Source: Medicago truncatula
Taxonomy: Eukaryota > Streptophyta > Magnoliopsida > Fabales > Fabaceae
DNA: 64,000 bases
Direction: 5' to 3'
NCBI RefSeq assembly: GCF_003473485.1
Contig: NC_053042.1
Span: 54,957,762 to 55,021,761 of the forward strand
A program made the translations under genes and the position numbers. The notes under the pieces were generated by a model. The model was not told the origin of the DNA. It saw only the letters and a list, made by a program, of their open reading frames with translations, and searched no databases. This document shows, one piece after another, positions 19,928 through 60,398 of this stretch (positions are counted from its first letter, which is position 1; every line of letters begins with the position of its first letter).

Positions 19928-20710
19928 TTAACCCCCAAACAAAATTGAAAGAGAATTGTTGTTGGCACATTGCATAAGAATGTGTCACACATGTAAATGA
20001 CGTTTTTGTCCCTCGGTAGTTAATTGCCGAAAAATTAGAAATACTGCCGAGGAACTACCGAGGATCTTCTGCTACAAATTTAGCAGAAGCTCTCTCATTC
20101 ATTATTCATCTCATCTTCTTCAAATTTCTCTCACAAATCTCTCTAAAAAACACAACTAAATCCAACCAAATTTATTAAATAAAATCATATTTTATTCAAC
20201 AAGTAAGTAATTATAATGTTATTAACTTATATTTTAGTTGTTATAAATATTTTTATTTTTTAGTTTTTGAGTACATTTATTATTTTTTAGTTTTTGACTA
20301 GATTTACATGTTATAATTAATTTTTAGGGTGGATGTTAATTGATTAATGTTGTTAAAATATTTGGATAATGTTTATGTTATAATTTAGAATTTTAGGGTT
20401 ATTTATTATTTTGTTGTTTTATATTTTTTTTTATTTTAGTTTTTAATTAGATTTACATGTTATAAATCATTTTTAGATTACATGTTAGTTGATTAATGTT
20501 ATATTATATGATTAAACATAAGTTGAATGATTTGTGTTATATTATATGATTAATTGTTTTATTTTAGTAAGAGTATATGATTTATAATTTTAGGGTTATT
20601 TTTATGAATTTTAGAGTCTATGTATAATGTGCATGTTAAGTGTTTGATGAAATGTTTTAATGAGTTTTTCATTGATTGTTTTTAATTTCTTATTGTGTAG
20701 ATTTGAAACA

Positions 20711-21058
20711 ATGGCCAGGTGGATCGACGTTCATGCGCAATTCAACGGCGGAGAACCTCAAAGGTTGAAGGTTTGATGCCTTGGTGTAACGTTAAGAGGT
20801 CTCAAGGATGAACTGACTGAATTCAACCAAGGAGTCAACCCCAGAGACACAAGGAGGGTGGAACACCTTCTGTATAAACGTCCAACGCTCGACGAGGGGA
20901 GAGTTTCATTCAGTTGGGTGGAATTAACAAACGACGAAAACGTGACGAGCATGTTTTGGGAGCACAGCATGTTCCAGTGGATCGATATGCGGGTGACGTT
21001 GCTGGGATCAACTGAAGATATCATCAACAACTTGATTCCGCCAGAAGATCGTCATTAG
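20711..21058 (+). pseudogene. Internal frame of Mutator-like element 1, one in-frame stop
   Basis: From ATG at 20711 a frame of 115 codons runs to TAG at 21056-21058 with a single TGA at codon 22 (20774-20776). It begins MARWIDVHAQFNGGEPQ and later has SFSWVELTNDENVTSMFWEH. Apart from the one stop the frame is clean, so it is a recently damaged gene or the TGA replaces a Trp codon. I do not recognise the family with certainty; the style resembles N-terminal parts of plant Mutator-type transposases, which is inference. It lies between a long AT-rich leader (20170-20700) and the twin hairpins. Confidence 0.55.
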
Positions 21059-21068
21059 TTAGGGTAAG

Positions 21069-21399
21069 GTGCATTCCAACTTCAACAATTGTCTTACCTT
21101 TGAATGAGATAAATTCAAACCTGCTAAACAACAGGACTCAAGCATTTCGCTCGGCATTCATGTTTTTCCTTTGAAAAGATTAAATTATTGTTAGGCTGGT
21201 TTAGATGAAGGTATTAAGTGTCAAGGAATGAACCTCATTTCGTTGGCACTTGAATACCATCATCTAAAGCAAGCCTAACAAAAATTTATTCTTTTCAAAG
21301 GAAAACATGAATGCTGGGTGAAATGTTTGAGTCTTGTTGTTTGGCAAGTTTGAATTGACCCCATTCAAAGGTAAGACAATTGTTGTAGTTGGAATGCAC
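21069..21399. repeat. Large hairpin 1 (arms about 160 bp)
   Basis: The left arm from 21069 (GTGCATTCCAACTTCAACAA) is mirrored by the right arm ending 21399 (TTGTAGTTGGAATGCAC), with matching sequence continuing inward to a loop of about 5 nt near 21231-21235. Arms agree at most positions with scattered mismatches. A transcript would form a long, almost unbroken stem. Confidence 0.88.
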
Positions 21400-21672
21400 A
21401 TTTCAACTGCAACAATTGTCTTACTCTGGATGGGGCAATTCAAACTTGTTAATCGGCAGGACTCCAACATTCGATAAGCGTCTTCAATGTTGGTATTCAA
21501 GTGTCAAGGAATGAACCTCATTCTTTTGACACTTGAATATCAGCGTTGAAGACGCTTGACACTTGAATATCAGCGTTGAAGACGCTGATCGAATACTAGA
21601 GTCATGCTGGTTAGCAAGTTTGAATTTGCCTCATTCAGTGGTAAGATGATTGTTGCAGTTGGAAGGTATATT
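21400..21672. repeat. Large hairpin 2, tandem to hairpin 1
   Basis: The left arm (TTTCAACTGCAACAATTGTC) is mirrored by the right arm (GATTGTTGCAGTTGGAAGG) around a centre near 21515-21520. It shares the AAGTGTCAAGGAATGAACCT core with hairpin 1, so the two are probably tandem copies of one inverted repeat. Its right arm contains the 30-bp tandem repeat listed next. Confidence 0.82.
21527..21586. repeat. Perfect 30-bp tandem repeat in hairpin 2
   Basis: Two exact copies of a 30-bp unit beginning TGACACTTGAATATCAGCGT, at 21527-21556 and 21557-21586. The extra copy would create a large bulge in one arm of the stem. Confidence 0.92.
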
Positions 21673-22789
21673 CCGGAATGTAATGTGCAATGCAATGTAA
21701 TGTGATAACATATATTTTGTTTTGAATGAAACAATAATTATCTTATTTATTCACTTTTCGAATTTATTTATTCATTATGCGATTTTAATTAGTTGGATTC
21801 ACGTTAGATTTAATTAGTTTTTTTTATTCGAATACGCAATTATTAAAAACGCGACTTTAATCGAAATTATTCCAAATGCGATTTTATTCTAAGTACCATA
21901 ATGTCAAACAAAATGTGCGGAACACAAAAATAAAACATAAAAAAAATCGAAAACAATTAGGCATTCATTCATTCATCCTCGTCACACAAGTCAATCGGGT
22001 TTCCCGCTACAGTCCCTGCGGCACCTTGTTTTGGTTGAGGACCAAAATAGCATGTCCTCCCGCTCCTCCTCAACCTCGAGTGAATGTACACCGGCACCTT
22101 CGAACCCTTCTTTTTTTCGGAACCATCGCAAACAATTCCGTGTCACGTCATAGGCGATTTTTCTTTGTTCTTCTCATCACCCTGAACGTTACCCTGATTC
22201 TGATTCTGAGACATATCTACATTAAAAACAAATGGCGATCAAAACCTCACTAAACAACAATGCCATAAAATCATAAAATCAAAAATTAAACCTAAACTTA
22301 AACTATCATCAAAACCTACACATAAACCTAAACAATTCTAACAATTCTACAACGATTCATCAAAACCTAAACCTAACAATTCAATAAAAGTTCTCTAACA
22401 ATTCTAACCTAAATTATCCTAACATATCATAAAATCCATATAATCGAAATTTAACAAAAAAAACAAACATTTCGACCACAAAACAACAATGCAATAGGAT
22501 TCATAAAACTTACTTGTTTTTGTGATTGAAATTGGCTTGGAATGACTTCAAATTGCTCAAAATCGCAGCAAGGAGAATAAAAAACGCAACAATGAAGTTT
22601 TGGAAACTCCTATGTCTGTTCTGTTCTTATAACATTTTCCCCGGCAGTTAACCACCGAGGTTTTCCTCGGCAATTAACTGCAGCCGGATTTCTAAAACTT
22701 CGGCAGTTAACTGCCGAGGGGGCAAAAACGTCATTTACCCGTGTGGCACAACCTTATGTAATTTGGGAACAACAATTCTCAAATTGAAA

Positions 22790-23726: not shown

Positions 23727-24041
23727 GGCTTAATTGTACTTTTGAACCTCTATCTTTTCGAAAGTTGCGGTTATGGACCCCTAACTAATTTAAATACAAA
23801 ACAGCCCCCTATGTTTTAATTCTTTGGCAGTTTTGGACCCCCAAGGCAAAAAAAAAAAAAAAAATTTCACACGTGGCACCTCACTTAGGGTGCAACGTCA
23901 GCGTTGACCGAGTCAACAATGGACTGGGGGTCCAAAACTGACAAAGAATCAAAACATAAGGGGCTGTTTTGTATTTAAATTAGTTAGGGGTCCATAACCG
24001 CAACTTTTTGAAAGATAAGGGTCTAAAAGTGCAATTAAGCC
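23727..24041. mobile_element. Mutator-like MITE, GGCTTAATTG family
   Basis: 315 bp with inverted ends of more than 100 bp (GGCTTAATTGTACTTTTGAA against TAAAAGTGCAATTAAGCC). It is flanked by a perfect 9-bp duplication TTAATTATT (23718-23726 and 24042-24050). Same end style as 1526-2483 and 50424-51477. Confidence 0.9.
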
Positions 24042-24050
24042 TTAATTATT

Positions 24051-24558
24051 TTAGTTTAAAATATATATTTTATCGGACAGACAAATATTTAAAAGATAAT
24101 TCACAAAGACGTATCCTAAAGAAAAAAAATGAAGGGTAAAATTGTGAGACAATGTTGTGAAAATTCAATTTAAGATATTATAATTATTTTTCGATTGACT
24201 AATTAAAAATTATGTTTTTGATAGATGAAAGCAATGAGAGAGAGAGGAGATTCAATCAATCAATATTAAACAAATTTTGTTTTGAGTTCTTTTATTGATG
24301 CAGTTGTTGATATCCTAACGGAATATGGTTTATACAAAAACTTTACATATTTTACTGCAATCACAATAACTATTTTCATATAAGAACTAAAATGACAATA
24401 AGTAAGTACTTATAAGGACTTGTATGACAATAAGTAAATATATTGAGTGACTAATATGACAATATTAATGAAAAAATTTAATATCAACGACTATTTTGAC
24501 AAAAAAATTGCACAATCACGGAGTATTTTAAAATTTTCATACATTTAAGGACCATTGT
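24051..24558. other. Intergenic, no gene seen
   Basis: AT-rich DNA between a MITE and a solo LTR. No open frame with protein character. Confidence 0.45.
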
Positions 24559-26240
24559 TGTAACGCCCTACTTTTGAATATTTTATTGAGTTTAGAGTCT
24601 ATTTTTATGATTTATGTGATTTATATGATTATTGTGATGTGTTGTTGATTTATTAAGTGGCTTATTTTATTATTTAATAGAATATGATTTGAAAATAAAA
24701 TAAGATTAAGTTGTGGAGGCTGTTTTGGAAATTAGATGAGTGATGTTTTGTTATGTTATATGTTGATATTTATTAGTAAAATATATGTTATTTGTTGTAG
24801 AAATATATGTTATTTGGTGTATAAATATTATGTTATTTGTTGTAGAAATATATGTTATTTGGTGTAGAAATATATGTTATTTTGTGCAGAAATATTATGT
24901 TATTTGGTGCAGAAATATTATGTTATTTGGTGTTGAAATATATGTTATTTTGTGTAGAAATATTATGTTATTTGATGTAGAAATATATGTTATTTTGTGT
25001 AGAAATATATATTATCTGGTGTAGAAATATATTTTTTATTTGGTATAGAAATATATATATGTTATAGAAATATATTTGTTATAAAGATATATTTGTTATT
25101 TGTTATAGAAATATTATATTATATATATATATATATATATAAATATATTAGAATATAATATTGAGACTTGGAGTGCAGATTTGGAAATAAGAGAAAATAA
25201 GTAGGTTAAAGATTTATATAAAAAAGGAGAGTTAGAATTAAAAAAAAGAAGGATTATAGGTGAACCTGCTTTTTGGAGAAAAAGGGAGAAAACAAGAGAA
25301 AAACCAAGAGAGAGAGGATGAATAAGATGATTAATATTGTTAATATTGATGATTTACTTTGATGATTAAATGTGAAAATATTTATATATTGTGAAAGACG
25401 TTGATATGAAGTTGTAATTGTTATATAAGATGATTATTATTGATGGTGACTTGATGCATATGTTTAAATGTTAATGTTTTGATGTTGTGATGAATTAATA
25501 CCATTAAGATGTCTAAGTTGTTAAGTTGTAAGATGTTGATCCAAATTATTGGAGTCATATGAGATGTCTAAGTTGTTAAGTCGTAAGATGTTGAGTCTAT
25601 TGCATACTCATTTAAGTTGAGGGCTTGATGCCCTGCAATGTATATTTATACATATTATGTTGAGGGTTTGATGCCTTGTAAGTTGAGGGCTTATGCCCTG
25701 TGAGCCTATCTACGCTTATACGTTGAGGGCTTGATGCCTTGGTACCACATGCATGATTAAGAGGTCGTAGTTGCATTTTGACGAGATGGTCTAAGATGAA
25801 TAAGAAGTCTAAGTTGCATTGATAAGTTGAAGTTGTGTCGTTGTTGTTAAGTTGTTATTTAACCTTGAGCTGTTGATTATATGATGTTGTTTATGATATT
25901 GATTATGATGTTGTTATGTCGGTTATGGTGTTATTGATGATTATGTTGTGTTGTTTATGTTATTATGAGATGATGATTATGTTGTGTTGTTTATGTTTTA
26001 AGATGATGTTTATGATGTGATGATTTATGAGATGTTATGATGAGACCTTCGTGCCAAAGACTATTTTAGTTGTTGAAATAAATTCCGCTGCGAAGTATGA
26101 ATTATTATGTTATTGAATTTTGAAGGATAATTAGTTAATTATTTCCGTTTATGATTTTTAAGAAGTGTGACATTCCGTTTTGTGATGATTACTCTGATTA
26201 TTTGAATGAAATTTATATGTTGAGAAAACAGGGTGTTATA
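24559..26240. mobile_element. Probable solo LTR
   Basis: Starts TGTAACGCCC and ends GGGTGTTATA, flanked by a perfect 5-bp duplication ATTGT (24554-24558 and 26241-26245), as expected for LTR retrotransposon integration; the terminal CA has become TA. The 1.68 kb contains no gag or pol frame. It carries TTGAGGGCTTGATGCC repeats at about 25618-25745 and a minisatellite at 24785-25095. Confidence 0.7.
24785..25095. repeat. Minisatellite of GTTATTTGGTGTAGAAATAT units
   Basis: About a dozen units of 21-24 bp, each combining GTTATTTGGTG or GTTATTTTGTG with TAGAAATATAT. The resulting 79-codon open frame is a repeat artefact. Confidence 0.9.
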
Positions 26241-27744: not shown

Positions 27745-27914
27745 GAGAAAATTTAGGTATAATTTCATAGGTGCTTTTCGTATGGTTCTTAACTAAATTC
27801 ATTATGATTTCCTCAAATCCATAATTTTCTCAAAGTTTATTATATAAAAAAAAAATGTATTTTTAGCTAAGAACCATACGAAAAGCACCTAAGAAATTGT
27901 ACCTAAGTTTTCTC
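27745..27914. mobile_element. MITE with TTAGGTGCTTTTCGTATGG arms
   Basis: The left arm CATAGGTGCTTTTCGTATGG is the complement of CCATACGAAAAGCACCTAAG on the right, extending to GAGAAAATTTAGGTA and its complement at the ends. The flanks are T-rich, so a 9-bp duplication is likely but ambiguous. It ends 293 bp before the PPR gene start. Confidence 0.72.
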
Positions 27915-39870: not shown

Positions 39871-41148
39871 GAGAATTGCTATTCCCACATTTGATAAGGC
39901 TGTGGCACACGAATAATTTATGTTTTTGCCCCCTCGGCAGTTAACTACCGAGGAATTAGAAATCCGGCTGCAGTTAACTGCGGAGGAAACTTCAAACCTT
40001 ATTTTTTTTAATTTTTTTTTTTTACAAAAATCTTATATTGTCATTATTAATATTTATTGATTCTAATACTAATTAATTCATTGTGATTTTATAAGGAAAC
40101 ATAATCAACACTCTTTTAATATTTTGGATTACATTAAAGAATTAAACAAGAAAATTATGATTTTCTTTTTCTTTTTTAAAAAGAAGCAACAATAAAAGCA
40201 CATTAATTGTATAATGAAATTAAAATTTCACTCAAAGAAATAATACTCCATTTATTAATCAAGGCTGTATATCTTTGCTGATTTAAATCATTAATTAAAA
40301 AACAATTAAATCACATACAAATAAAAATATGAACCATAATTGACCATATTAAAATTTATTTTAATATTATTTACTAGGAAAATGCTCTTTACCACAAACA
40401 GTGTTACAACGAAAAACAAGAAAAACACTAGCCTTGTCGTTTTTTCCGCCAAAAACGTCTTAGATGTTTTTTTTTTTTTTTAATATTAAAATGATGTTTA
40501 TTGTAGTTATATAGTGAATGTTTCGTGAATTCTTTTTCGATCAATGATGTTTATTCTACTTACTAAAGTCATAGTTGATTTTTTTTTTTTTGACAATAAT
40601 CAGAATTAATTCACTTGATTCCATCCATGTCAATGTGCATATATATAGAGGAAATAAATGGATTATTAAGAGAAGTTAAAGCCAAGTTATTCTACAAGGA
40701 TTTTTACGAAAAAGAATGGAAGAAATTTGATAAATCTTGAAGGATCAAAGGGATAAGCTGGAAAACAATATCTAATGAAATAATTTGTTAAAAAAAAAAA
40801 AACATTAAAAGAGTGTTGATTATGTTTCCTCATAAAATCATAACTTTCTTATTTAATTCTTTAATGTAATCCAAAACATTAAAAGAGTGTTGATTATGTT
40901 TTCTCATAAAATCACAATAAATTAAATAGTATTAGAATCAATAAATATTAATAGTGACAATATAAGGTTTTTGTAAAAAAAATAAATAAATTAAGGTTTA
41001 AAGTTTCATCGGCAGCTAACTACCGAGGTTTTCCTCGGCAGTTAACTGCAACCGGATTTTTAATTCCTCAGTAGTTAACTGCCGAGGGGGTAAAATCTTA
41101 TTTTACTAGTGTTTCTCAGCCTTATCAAACATGGGAACAACAATTCTC
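39871..41148. mobile_element. Mutator-like element 2, 1.28 kb
   Basis: Starts GAGAATTGCTATTCCCACAT and ends ATGGGAACAACAATTCTC. The flanks ACTAGAGGA and ACTGGAGGA agree at 8 of 9 positions. Terminal inverted repeats reach about 290 bp and contain CGGCAGTTAACTGCCG-type palindromes. An internal segment with AAAACATTAAAAGAGTGTTG is repeated about 75 bp apart (near 40800 and 40876). No coding capacity. Confidence 0.85.
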
Positions 41149-41341: not shown

Positions 41342-41597
41342 GAGAATTGTTGTTGACACATATGCAACTGGATAATGTCTATAATTTCAAACGCCCCTCG
41401 ACAGTTAACTACCGAGAAAAACTTCGACAGTAAACTACCGAGTAAAACTGAAAACTTCGGCAATTAACTGCCGAGGAAACCACAAACCTGTTTTTTTTTT
41501 TTTTTTTTTTGTCAAAAACCATAAATTATCATTAATAATATTTATTGATTTTGAATGTTTCAATTATTATTTTGTACGTTTCAAACAATTGCAGTTA

Positions 41598-42151
41598 GAG
41601 TTTTTCTACTTGCACCCTAGTTAATCATGGTTGCACCCCAAAATGACAAGATTACCCTTTCATAAAATTTAATCTAAAACTTAGTTGAAGTAGGTCATAT
41701 AAACTGAGTTTAAGTGTATATACTTAATCTCAATTTAAGTAGGTTCATGTAAACTAAGTTTACATGAACTTTAGTTTACATGAACCTACTTAAACTGAAT
41801 TTAAGTTAACCTTGCCAATGTAAATTAAAACCGTAATCGTACAGTGCATCAGTGCAGTTGAAGGAAAAAATTGAAACTAGCAAATAGAAGAAGAAATTCA
41901 CTTACTTATATCCAATTGAGTATGGATGAAAAATATTTTGATTCACTCTTTAATTTTCATGGAGATTGATATTGAACATCAAATTGTTTGATCGATCGCT
42001 TTGTGGGGTGAAAGAGGGTGAAACTCACTGACAATGAATAAAATTAGGGTTTTAAGAAAATTTATATAAAAGGGCAATTTTGGTATTATAAAAAACTTTT
42101 AAGAAAATTTGGGTGTAACCAGAAAAACATGAGGTGTAAATAGAAAAACTC
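41598..42151. mobile_element. Mutator-like MITE nested in element 3
   Basis: 554 bp with ends GAGTTTTTCTACTTGCACCC and GGTGTAAATAGAAAAACTC. It is flanked by a perfect 9-bp duplication TTGCAGTTA (41589-41597 and 42152-42160). A second, inner GGTGTAACCAGAAAAAC motif repeats the end. Non-coding. Confidence 0.9.
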
Positions 42152-42157
42152 TTGCAG

Positions 42158-42160
<3 letters not shown>

Positions 42161-42243
<83 letters not shown>
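42161..42243. repeat. (TA)n microsatellite, about 41 units
   Basis: An uninterrupted TA run directly after the right target duplication of the nested element. Confidence 0.95.
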
Positions 42244-42245
<2 letters not shown>

Positions 42246-42551
42246 TAATAAGAATATCATTTAAATTTTGACCAAAAAATAAAGAGCATTTAAGTCCTCA
42301 AAAAACATTTCAATAAGTGTAAAAATTAAGCATTTGAATATTGTTTTGCAAATTACTTAAATAAAAAAAATCTTTGTGCACAATTATTTTAATGTAGAAA
42401 ATATAACAACATATTATACTTTAAAAAAATCGTTGTGCACAATTATTTTAACGATTTTTTTTTATTTTTTATTTTTATTTAAGTAATGTGCAAAACAATA
42501 TTCAAATTCTTAATTTTTACACTGATTTAAATGTTATTCTTATTAAGATAT
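42244..42551. repeat. Internal foldback in element 3
   Basis: CTTAATAAGAATATCATTTA on the left pairs with TAAATGTTATTCTTATTAAG on the right, and GAATATTGTTTTGCA with TGCAAAACAATATTC. The left arm carries about 55 extra bases. The middle repeats GTGCACAATTATTTTAA twice. Confidence 0.8.
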
Positions 42552-42970
42552 ATACGCATAAGTATAATACTGCAATTGTTTAAAACTTACCAAAATAATG
42601 ATTGAAACATTCAAAATCAATAAATATTATTAATGACAATTTATGGTTTTTGTCAAAAAAAAAAAAAAAACAGGTTTGAGGTTTCCTCGGCAGTTAACTG
42701 CCGAAGTTTTCAGTTTTCCTTGATAGTTTACTGCCGAAGTTTTCCTCGGTAGTTAACTGCAGCCGATTCCATATAATTCGGCAATTAACTGCCGAGAGGC
42801 ATTTCAATAAATTACTCGTGTGACATAGTCTTATGCAATGTGTCAACAACAATTCTCTGCTATGTGAGGTTGGCTACATGATAAGAAAGTAAATACCATG
42901 ATTTGTTATGTGCTCACTCAGTTCACAAAAGAATCAAATACAACTTTAAAAGGGCTGAAAATATAAATAC

Positions 42971-44832: not shown

Positions 44833-45980
44833 TTACTCAGCATTTTCATTTGATGCTCCATCAACATTGCATTTAATCCAATTAAATATTGGATGTTGTC
44901 AGATAACTTCTTTGATTCTAGGAGCATTACCATGATTGATCTTGACTGATAATGCTTTCAAAATGACAAAATCAGCAATGGAGGAGTTTGCAGCCAAATT
45001 AGAGTTGTTACCAGTCATAGCAGTTGCAAAAATGATGATATTGATTGATGATCTGTGACTAATCTTTTTATCAGCAAATCTTAGCCGGTTTCTACAAAAC
45101 CAAATAGTGTTGAGACAGTTTATTAAATCTGACAAAACATCAATTTTACATAAAGGGGACCAGTTCCTTTGGCAAAGTTGTATTGCATCATGAATTGTTG
45201 TAAAGTTGCATTGAAGACTCGGAATAGAAATTAGCCATTGTCAAATAGACATTGCAAAGGTGCATTCAAGAAATAAATGAGTTGTTGATTCTTGCATAGA
45301 GTTGCTAAGACTGCACATCAAAGATTCCTGACAACCTCTTAAAGCAAGATTGTCATTTGTAGGTAGCTTGTTGTGCAAGCTTCTCCAGACCATAAGAGAT
45401 TTTGAGGGAGGAATGAAAATGTTCCAAATGCTCTTAGACCAAGGTATGTTTTGACCATCAGGACAGTGAAAATGGTATGCCTCTTTGAATGAAAGATCAT
45501 TATGAGTGGTTCCAAATATATTGATCATCTCTATCAAACACAAGGATAGTAATCTTCTCTATAATATTCGGCAAAATGGGAAAGATTTGATAGAGGCTTT
45601 GTGGAATATTCCAGGAAGAATTATGAATGAAAAGATTGACTGCTGATTAAAGCAAAGAATGAATGCTAGGTGGAATGTTCAAAGTTGAGACCAAAGGTGC
45701 TACACATGAAGCATCAATCCAAAAGTTGATGTCATTGCCATTACCAAGCTGCCAAGATGACTTGATAACCACTTCTGAGTATGTGTTTAATGCTGCTCCA
45801 CACAGATGAAGATATATGATAAGAAATTGGAATTTGGCTTTGCATGACTCTATTTCTCAAAAATTGAGTTTTGCAGGTAGAAGTTTTCTTCATTCTCTTT
45901 GCACACGAGAAAGAAAATGATTTTGGGTGCAGAAATGTTCGGCTTTCAACCTGCATATAGAGTAAACAACTCTTCAAAAA
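44833..45980 (-). pseudogene. LINE-type retrotransposon remnant (RT zinc-binding and RNase H start)
   Basis: Minus-strand frames, broken by stops, read IKHILRSGYQVILAAWQLGN and NDINFWIDASCVAPLV (45600-45760), then the reverse-transcriptase zinc-binding region IPWSKSIWNIFIPPSKSLMV, WRSLHNKLPTNDNLALRGC and ESTTHLFLECTFAM (45241-45480). WIKCNVDGASNENAE, the usual start of a plant LINE RNase H domain, comes just before the end at 44833. The polymerase core and ORF1 are absent, so this is 3' debris. Confidence 0.82.
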
Positions 45981-59750: not shown

Positions 59751-60398
59751 GAGGGGGGATATTTTGACTTCAAGAGTAAGTCCATTAACTTACTCTAAAT
59801 CTTGACTTTTAACTCTAATATCAATTAATGGTTTAGATTGATTCATAATAATTGATATGATGGACTTTAATTTTATTCTCTATTGTAGTTAAAAACTCAT
59901 CACCATAAAACAATTAATGATTTTAATTGATTATTTTTTTTTTCATTCACCTCCTTGGCATACGGGACTAAAAAATTGTTATTCAATTATGTTTTTTCTC
60001 TTTTTCTTTTACACATATGCTTTTTCTATGTTTGTCATGCCTTTCTTTTCTCTTACAAGCACTCAATCTTTTACTATTGAATTACCAACCAAAAAAATAA
60101 TTATTTAAAAATTTAACTATATTATATTTTTCCTTGCTGTGTTTATTTTTTGTGTATAAAAAAAAGGGACAAGAATAAAAAAACAACCAATTATCCTTCA
60201 AAAAAATAAATAAATTAAATTGCATTAATTGTTTTGCCATTTTGAAATGATGAGTGTTAACTCCAATAGAAAATAAAATTAAAGCTTATTGTATCACTTA
60301 TTATTAATCAATCTAAACCATTAGCTAATTATAAAATTAAAGGCTAAAATTTAAAGTAAGTAGACAAACTTACTCTTGGAGTCAAAATATCTCCCCTC
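59751..60398. mobile_element. Mutator-like element upstream of the PPR-SMR gene
   Basis: 648 bp with inverted ends GAGGGGGGATATTTTGACTT and GAGTCAAAATATCTCCCCTC, and inner arms AATGGTTTAGATTGATT / AATCAATCTAAACCATT. The flanks are both ATATATATA, which fits a 9-bp duplication but is low-complexity. It ends about 300 bp before the start codon at 60700. Confidence 0.75.

Follow-up and report, generated by a model that had tools for sequence, protein, structure and literature searches.

Hairpins borne by transposons are usually regarded as accidents from which silencing begins. The long stems of plant inverted-repeat RNAs are substrates of DICER-LIKE enzymes, which yield small RNAs from them. 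Endogenous inverted-repeat siRNA loci, such as IR71 of Arabidopsis, are single loci that give a long, near-perfect foldback RNA processed by several DICER-LIKE enzymes, while plant MIRNA foldbacks have a length limit near 300 nt. To our knowledge, miR820 is the one supported plant case of a transposon profiting from double-stranded RNA. In rice, miR820 derives from CACTA elements and acts on OsDRM2, as outlined in PMC3459959. In maize, Mu killer, an inverted duplication of mudrA and TIRA sequence, is described as silencing MuDR (PMC3440606), and 62.82% of the Mutator (DTM) elements are reported to hold a predicted miRNA-like structure (PMC10760457).

The twin hairpins considered here lie in the window, i.e., the whole 64,000-nucleotide stretch of Medicago truncatula DNA that was analysed, as two tandem foldbacks of 331 and 268 nt arranged head to tail (Table 1). 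The initial annotation, made from the letters alone, had described two adjacent long inverted repeats of about 300 bp with a common core, each folding into a long double-stranded stem, and both are indeed present. The + strand of the hairpin region folds at -386.5 kcal/mol, whereas 20 dinucleotide shuffles average -144.5 kcal/mol (sd 6.8; z -35.6), and the minus strand folds at -322.9 kcal/mol (z -26.5). The 20-mer core named in the annotation occurs in both hairpins, where it constitutes the apex of each stem, and the match can be extended beyond it. A chance inverted repeat was ruled out, as 0 of the 20 shuffles reach the observed fold and the structure recurs in genome copies. The possibility that a small foldback element had inserted independently after ORF1 was also rejected: no target-site duplication was seen at the hairpin ends (by eye), and the hairpin unit always follows ORF1 in the inspected copies. 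The 30-bp tandem duplication in hairpin 2 of the window copy is absent from the 36 other rows (36/36) of the hairpin 2 alignment. In another copy (L053, 1438-1842, minus strand), hairpin 1 has extra tandem duplications of arm pieces; the arms, thus, seem prone to short tandem duplication.

Table 1. Features of the hairpin-bearing element and its immediate flanks (window coordinates).
Feature	Coordinates	Strand	Description
Left 9-bp target-site duplication AAATTGAAA	19942..19950	.	directly outside left end
Whole Mutator-like element	19951..22780	+	terminal inverted repeats and 9-bp duplication
Left terminal inverted repeat, ~115 bp	19951..20067	+	local alignment with right end; 92/117 identical
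Predicted leader intron (GTAAGT ... TGTAG)	20203..20700	+	upstream of ORF1; GT/AG conservation among copies
ORF1, 115 aa	20711..21058	+	in-frame TGA at 20774-20776 (codon 22) in window copy
Hairpin 1	21069..21399	+	~150-bp near-perfect stem, 3-nt loop
Hairpin 1 arms (extended outward)	21066..21215 / 21253..21402		150 nt, 81% complementary, ungapped
Apex core, hairpin 1 (extended)	21216..21259	+	89% identity with hairpin 2 core
Hairpin 2	21400..21667	+	~115-bp near-perfect stem; with 30-bp tandem duplication private to window copy
Hairpin 2 arms (extended outward)	21437..21508 / 21555..21626		72 nt, 85% complementary
Apex core, hairpin 2 (extended)	21499..21542	+	89% identity with hairpin 1 core
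Perfect 30-bp tandem duplication, hairpin 2 3' arm	21526..21585	+	21526-21555 = 21556-21585
ORF2, ~81 aa in other copies	21969..22214	-	ends placed by reading sequence; convergent with ORF1; own predicted leader intron
Right terminal inverted repeat	22662..22780	-	alignment with left end
Right 9-bp target-site duplication AAATTGAAA	22781..22789	.	directly outside right end

The hairpins had been placed inside a Mutator-like element, and this element could now be delimited: it measures 2,830 bp, ends in inverted repeats of about 115 bp each, and is flanked by a target-site duplication of 9 bp without mismatch. No transposase frame was found within it, and neither of its two frames resembles one. 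ORF1 has no Pfam match (three copies and the window's two ORF1 pieces), and the structure model of an ORF1 fragment is poor (mean pLDDT 46.6) and was given no weight. The host is a non-autonomous, transposase-less Mutator-like element. MuDR has a convergent frame layout, which the two-frame layout of the present element resembles. The sites of the predicted leader intron are conserved, GT being present in all of 29 alignable copies and AG in 38 out of 39. The hairpins begin 10 nt past the end of ORF1, so that the annotation was right in placing them directly after a reading frame, which has a TGA in the window copy; nevertheless, this frame is not generally damaged, being open in 21 of the 38 copies that span it. 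As ORF1 is open in many copies, the hairpins fall in its predicted 3' UTR. ORF2 is open in 15 of the 27 copies spanning it, and in the window copy runs for 23 codons up to an in-frame stop. Amino-acid constraint on ORF1 is not clear (N:S of 92:36 for private and 67:34 for shared changes, P = 0.39, with a neutral expectation of ~2.7). Two more elements with the same terminal sequence lie side by side in the window, at 39871-41148 (flanks 8/9) and 41342-42857 (flanks 7/9). The second of these has its own 70-bp foldback at 42301-42538.

Other copies, for which the annotation had suggested a genome search, were looked for in the window's own genome (430 Mb, 42 contigs). With positions 21000-21700 as the query, scoring the best 40 of 445 candidates gave 40 loci (the subfamily A list, window included); with a diverged copy (L055) as the query, scoring the best 40 of 427 candidates gave 40 further loci (subfamily B). 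The two lists are disjoint and comprise at least 80 distinct loci in two subfamilies. Among the 68 loci inspected (all 40 of the subfamily A list and 28 of the 40 subfamily B loci), the same ORF1 stands in front and both hairpins are complete in 63, namely 36 of 40 in A, window included, and 27 of 28 in B. The annotation had counted one outcome against its reading, namely that such hairpins would occur merely as chance inverted duplications scattered over unrelated sites; the observed outcome is the opposite. The remaining four loci of the A list are cut in hairpin 2, hairpin 2 of L055 is reduced to a remnant, and two additional copies (L052 and L053) have both hairpins.

Flanking duplications were assessed in the 15 elements (window included) for which the retrieved DNA covers the left and the right end: 11 of them have a perfect 9-bp duplication and 12 match in at least 8 of 9 positions, a level found in 12 of 2000 random pairs of places. 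The hairpin-bearing unit, therefore, moves as one element. In the ORF1 protein search, 98 of the best 150 of 812 candidates are without a stop in the matched stretch (count by eye), this list being ranked and, therefore, biased toward good copies. Eight of these best 150 matches, including L052, have one score in common, which hints at a young group. Given their recurrence in the family copies, the twin hairpins are no accident of the window copy, and they can be described with confidence as an inherited and structurally stable component of a Mutator-like family that has many copies and lacks a transposase. The hairpins at 21069-21672 are, thus, real, but they are a property of this whole family and not a single locus, as had been annotated.

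A self-silencing locus had also been proposed. With a mechanism of the Mu killer type, small RNAs from the hairpins would shut down the element family, and any of them, whichever copy it came from, would also match the other copies, as the hairpins are 87.5-97.7% identical among 36 copies. Nevertheless, this explanation appears very improbable. Within the element, the arms match each other only, and neither the terminal repeats nor the ORFs, whereas Mu killer duplicates transposase and terminal-repeat sequence, as described in PMC3440606; self-silencing by homology is, therefore, not supported. A self-silencing structure would, in addition, hardly persist in spreading lineages. Elsewhere in the window, the best match to the arms is 31 nt long with 84% identity (45649-45679, E = 0.003).

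Several features of the copies speak for selection on the RNA fold. In every sequence folded (36 of subfamily A and 22 of subfamily B), the coding strand gives the more stable stem, which amounts to a single observation, because the copies have ancestry in common. In hairpin 1 (alignment of 42 rows, leaving out L032, which was not mapped, and L053, which was too long), 97.3% of the cells are paired, and among 123 pairs there are 24 in which both sides have changed while pairing was kept; the value for shuffles is 8.6, with none of the 500 reaching 24, and slid partners give 15 at most. In hairpin 2, 5 of 85 pairs have changed on both sides. The alignment of hairpin 2 has 37 rows, without L032, L039, L044, L045, and L055 (not mapped or outside the length range), and with L046 and L047, in which this hairpin is cut, removed by hand.

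Further evidence for selection comes from a symmetric test, in which pairs are defined on the DNA, G:U and A:C are treated alike, and private (unshared) variants are compared with shared ones. For the non-majority variants of both subfamilies together, private variants comprise 94 G:U and 108 A:C, and shared variants 88 and 55, respectively (Fisher P = 0.006), although these counts are not fully independent, because the copies are related. The signal is moderate: subfamily A alone gives P = 0.036, and subfamily B by itself is not significant (P = 0.08). When majority types are included, the G:U to A:C counts are 52:56 private and 59:29 shared in subfamily A (P = 0.009), and 42:52 private and 49:33 shared in subfamily B (P = 0.05). 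The subfamily A counts are without L054 and L055 for hairpin 1, and without L053 and L054 for hairpin 2. The terminal repeats, which work as DNA, constitute a control, with 32:33 for private variants, and 20:18 (non-majority) or 21:21 (majority types included) for shared ones. Transcription-linked mutation bias was ruled out as the cause of the G:U excess, because the shared changes of ORF1 amount to 37 C>T plus A>G versus 42 G>A plus T>C, and the 3' flank behaves likewise; private changes in the leader intron are biased the opposite way (13:33).

In an earlier form of the test, the predicted RNA fold had supplied the pairs, and the counts were 38:38 for private and 56:15 for shared variants; this form was set aside, because its pairs had been chosen for coding-strand pairing, and the symmetric test, which is weaker, was relied on. 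Singletons at the paired sites of the predicted fold are without bias (49:52), so that single copies decay freely. In the window copy alone, G:U versus A:C is 20:6 (P = 0.009), while the pooled counts for 13 further inverted repeats in the window are 48:60; compared with these control repeats, the excess has P = 0.004 in the unfolded direction, and 0.17 when the arbitrary direction is folded. In a permutation test on the window copy, the value of hairpin 1 was reached in 12 of 400 swaps and that of hairpin 2 in 1 of 400, and one of the 13 control repeats (I19) is also extreme (0 of 100). Overall, selection probably, though not certainly, acted on the pairing of the coding-strand RNA in the mobile lineage.

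These patterns have to be weighed against the possibility that the hairpins are passive passengers, issued from an ancestral inverted, then tandem duplication behind ORF1, and kept by descent and arm-to-arm conversion, the RNA being without a role. Private mutations are neutral and ORF1 is nearly neutral as well, as would be expected for a passenger. The arms of the same hairpin (88% and 81% identity) are more alike than those of different hairpins (72-74%), as would be expected from conversion between arms. In hairpin 1, A:C intermediates occupy 18 cells versus 7 for G:U at the three pairs with the strongest covariation, which fits the copying of one arm onto the other, and not compensation via G:U; part of this surplus may be misalignment. 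When the shared hairpin changes are counted by column and not by pair, they are nearly even (38:33, 17:14, and 14:12). Nevertheless, neither conversion nor descent distinguishes G:U from A:C, and the shared variants of the symmetric test lean to G:U, unlike the private ones. Furthermore, the terminal repeats of the same elements are without a G:U lean, and both hairpins persist in two diverged subfamilies. A purely passive origin is, on balance, rather unlikely.

The best explanation overall, which can be considered somewhat probable, is that an element-borne hairpin transcript feeds the dicer pathway, with coding-strand pairing favoured in spreading lineages. From the anatomy of the element, in which the splice sites are conserved, the transcript would start near the left terminal repeat, lose the leader intron, carry ORF1, and continue through the hairpins. 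Its 3' UTR would then contain a pair of long double-stranded stems. If these behave like plant inverted-repeat RNAs in general, DICER-LIKE enzymes would cut them into small RNAs from both arms. In lineages still transposing, changes that keep pairing would be retained more often than those that break it, private changes being neutral, which is the step that the symmetric test supports. As the shared changes favour coding-strand pairing, the hairpin RNA probably contributes to the success of the element, and it can be proposed with moderate confidence that this pairing aided the lineages that spread.

In a rival explanation, the element would carry a MIRNA directed against a host gene, comparable to miR820, with one precise product repressing a host silencing gene, to the element's advantage. 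The layout is the same, with hairpins residing in a DNA transposon of many copies, and pairing bears a sign of selection in the lineage that moved; miR820 shows that such a strategy exists (PMC3459959). Twenty PF00145 matches, which are candidates for host methyltransferases, were located in the genome. The hairpins are foldbacks with few mismatches, as are plant MIRNA precursors, and with 331 and 268 nt they are long for this class. Still, near-perfect stems of ~150 and ~115 bp suit many small RNAs better than one, and stems of this kind, long and nearly perfectly double-stranded, are those of hairpin siRNA loci. No Rfam family was found at the hairpins at gathering score, the best sub-threshold one being MIR4208 (56.3 bits vs 140), which agrees with the annotation, where no known MIRNA family had been recognised. 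A dedicated MIRNA is, thus, quite unlikely.

Elsewhere in the window, three Rfam families of barrel medic, MIR2619, MIR2606, and MIR5286, are matched. The MIR2619 hairpin (23799-23969) is the inside of a 315-bp foldback (23727-24041) flanked by a perfect 9-bp direct repeat (TTAATTATT), so that this family, although registered as MIRNA, resembles a miniature element of the Mutator type. The MIR2606 match (27745-27914) is an almost complete inverted repeat, the flanks of which have TTTTTATTT near both ends, and this suggests that it may be a miniature element too. An element with inverted ends (GAGGGGGGATATTTT) and a TA repeat on both sides lies at 59751-60398; its target choice is similar to that of MuTAnT, as described in PMC4486113, and its ends differ. 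An array of ~22-bp repeats is found at 24717-25075, in a strongly G-skewed, AT-rich stretch (GC skew of 0.50 at 24001-26000).

A broader reading of the hairpin transcript can be offered tentatively, as a possibility. The selected, strand-specific twin hairpin RNA could be a mobile dsRNA gene, helping a high-copy transposon family either because a small RNA from it targets a silencing gene of the host, or because it loads the silencing machinery or diverts it, and it would be kept in amplifying lineages although the small proteins evolve nearly freely. If pairing was favoured during the spread, making double-stranded RNA would be of benefit to a transposon. Since the family has two subfamilies and dozens of near-identical copies, in a model legume with a sequenced genome, small-RNA and methylation data that already exist would allow this to be tested directly. 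In the open-access literature, no description was found of internal tandem hairpins of ~300 nt that are position-conserved in a family and have a strand-specific sign of selection, and the literature search returned no paper on this element family. The arm sequences have no match in paper texts (supplements being outside this search), and the core 24-mer has 0 matches in genome_contigs and viral_contigs, two collections without plants.

Compared with endogenous inverted-repeat siRNA loci of the IR71 type, the present family has in common a long foldback RNA with near-perfect pairing, which would be expected to serve as a substrate for several DICER-LIKE enzymes, but these are single loci, whereas at least dozens of transposon copies are concerned here. 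Mu killer, as described in PMC3440606, is also a Mutator-superfamily-linked inverted duplication able to give a long hairpin RNA; it differs in that the arms here match neither the ends nor the frames of the element, and in that the hairpins are part of mobile copies. Predicted miRNA-like structures are common in the same superfamily in maize, but, according to PMC10760457, they are short (median 25 nt) and concentrated at terminal repeats, whereas those of the present family are internal, tandem, ~300 nt each, and position-conserved. MuTAnT is a Mutator-like family of the same species, also with 9-bp duplications, and is distinguished by its terminal repeats (search mask GGGGTTTGCTAGAACA vs GAGAATTGTTGTT), its insertion into TA repeats, and its small foldback elements (PMC4486113). 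The most telling known comparison for the twin hairpins is rice miR820, as presented in PMC3459959. In both cases, a plant DNA transposon present in many copies carries an RNA hairpin, and there is evidence that pairing is relevant to the lineage of the element, but in rice this involves CACTA elements and a MIRNA precursor, whereas in Medicago truncatula it involves a Mutator-like element and two long, near-perfect stems.
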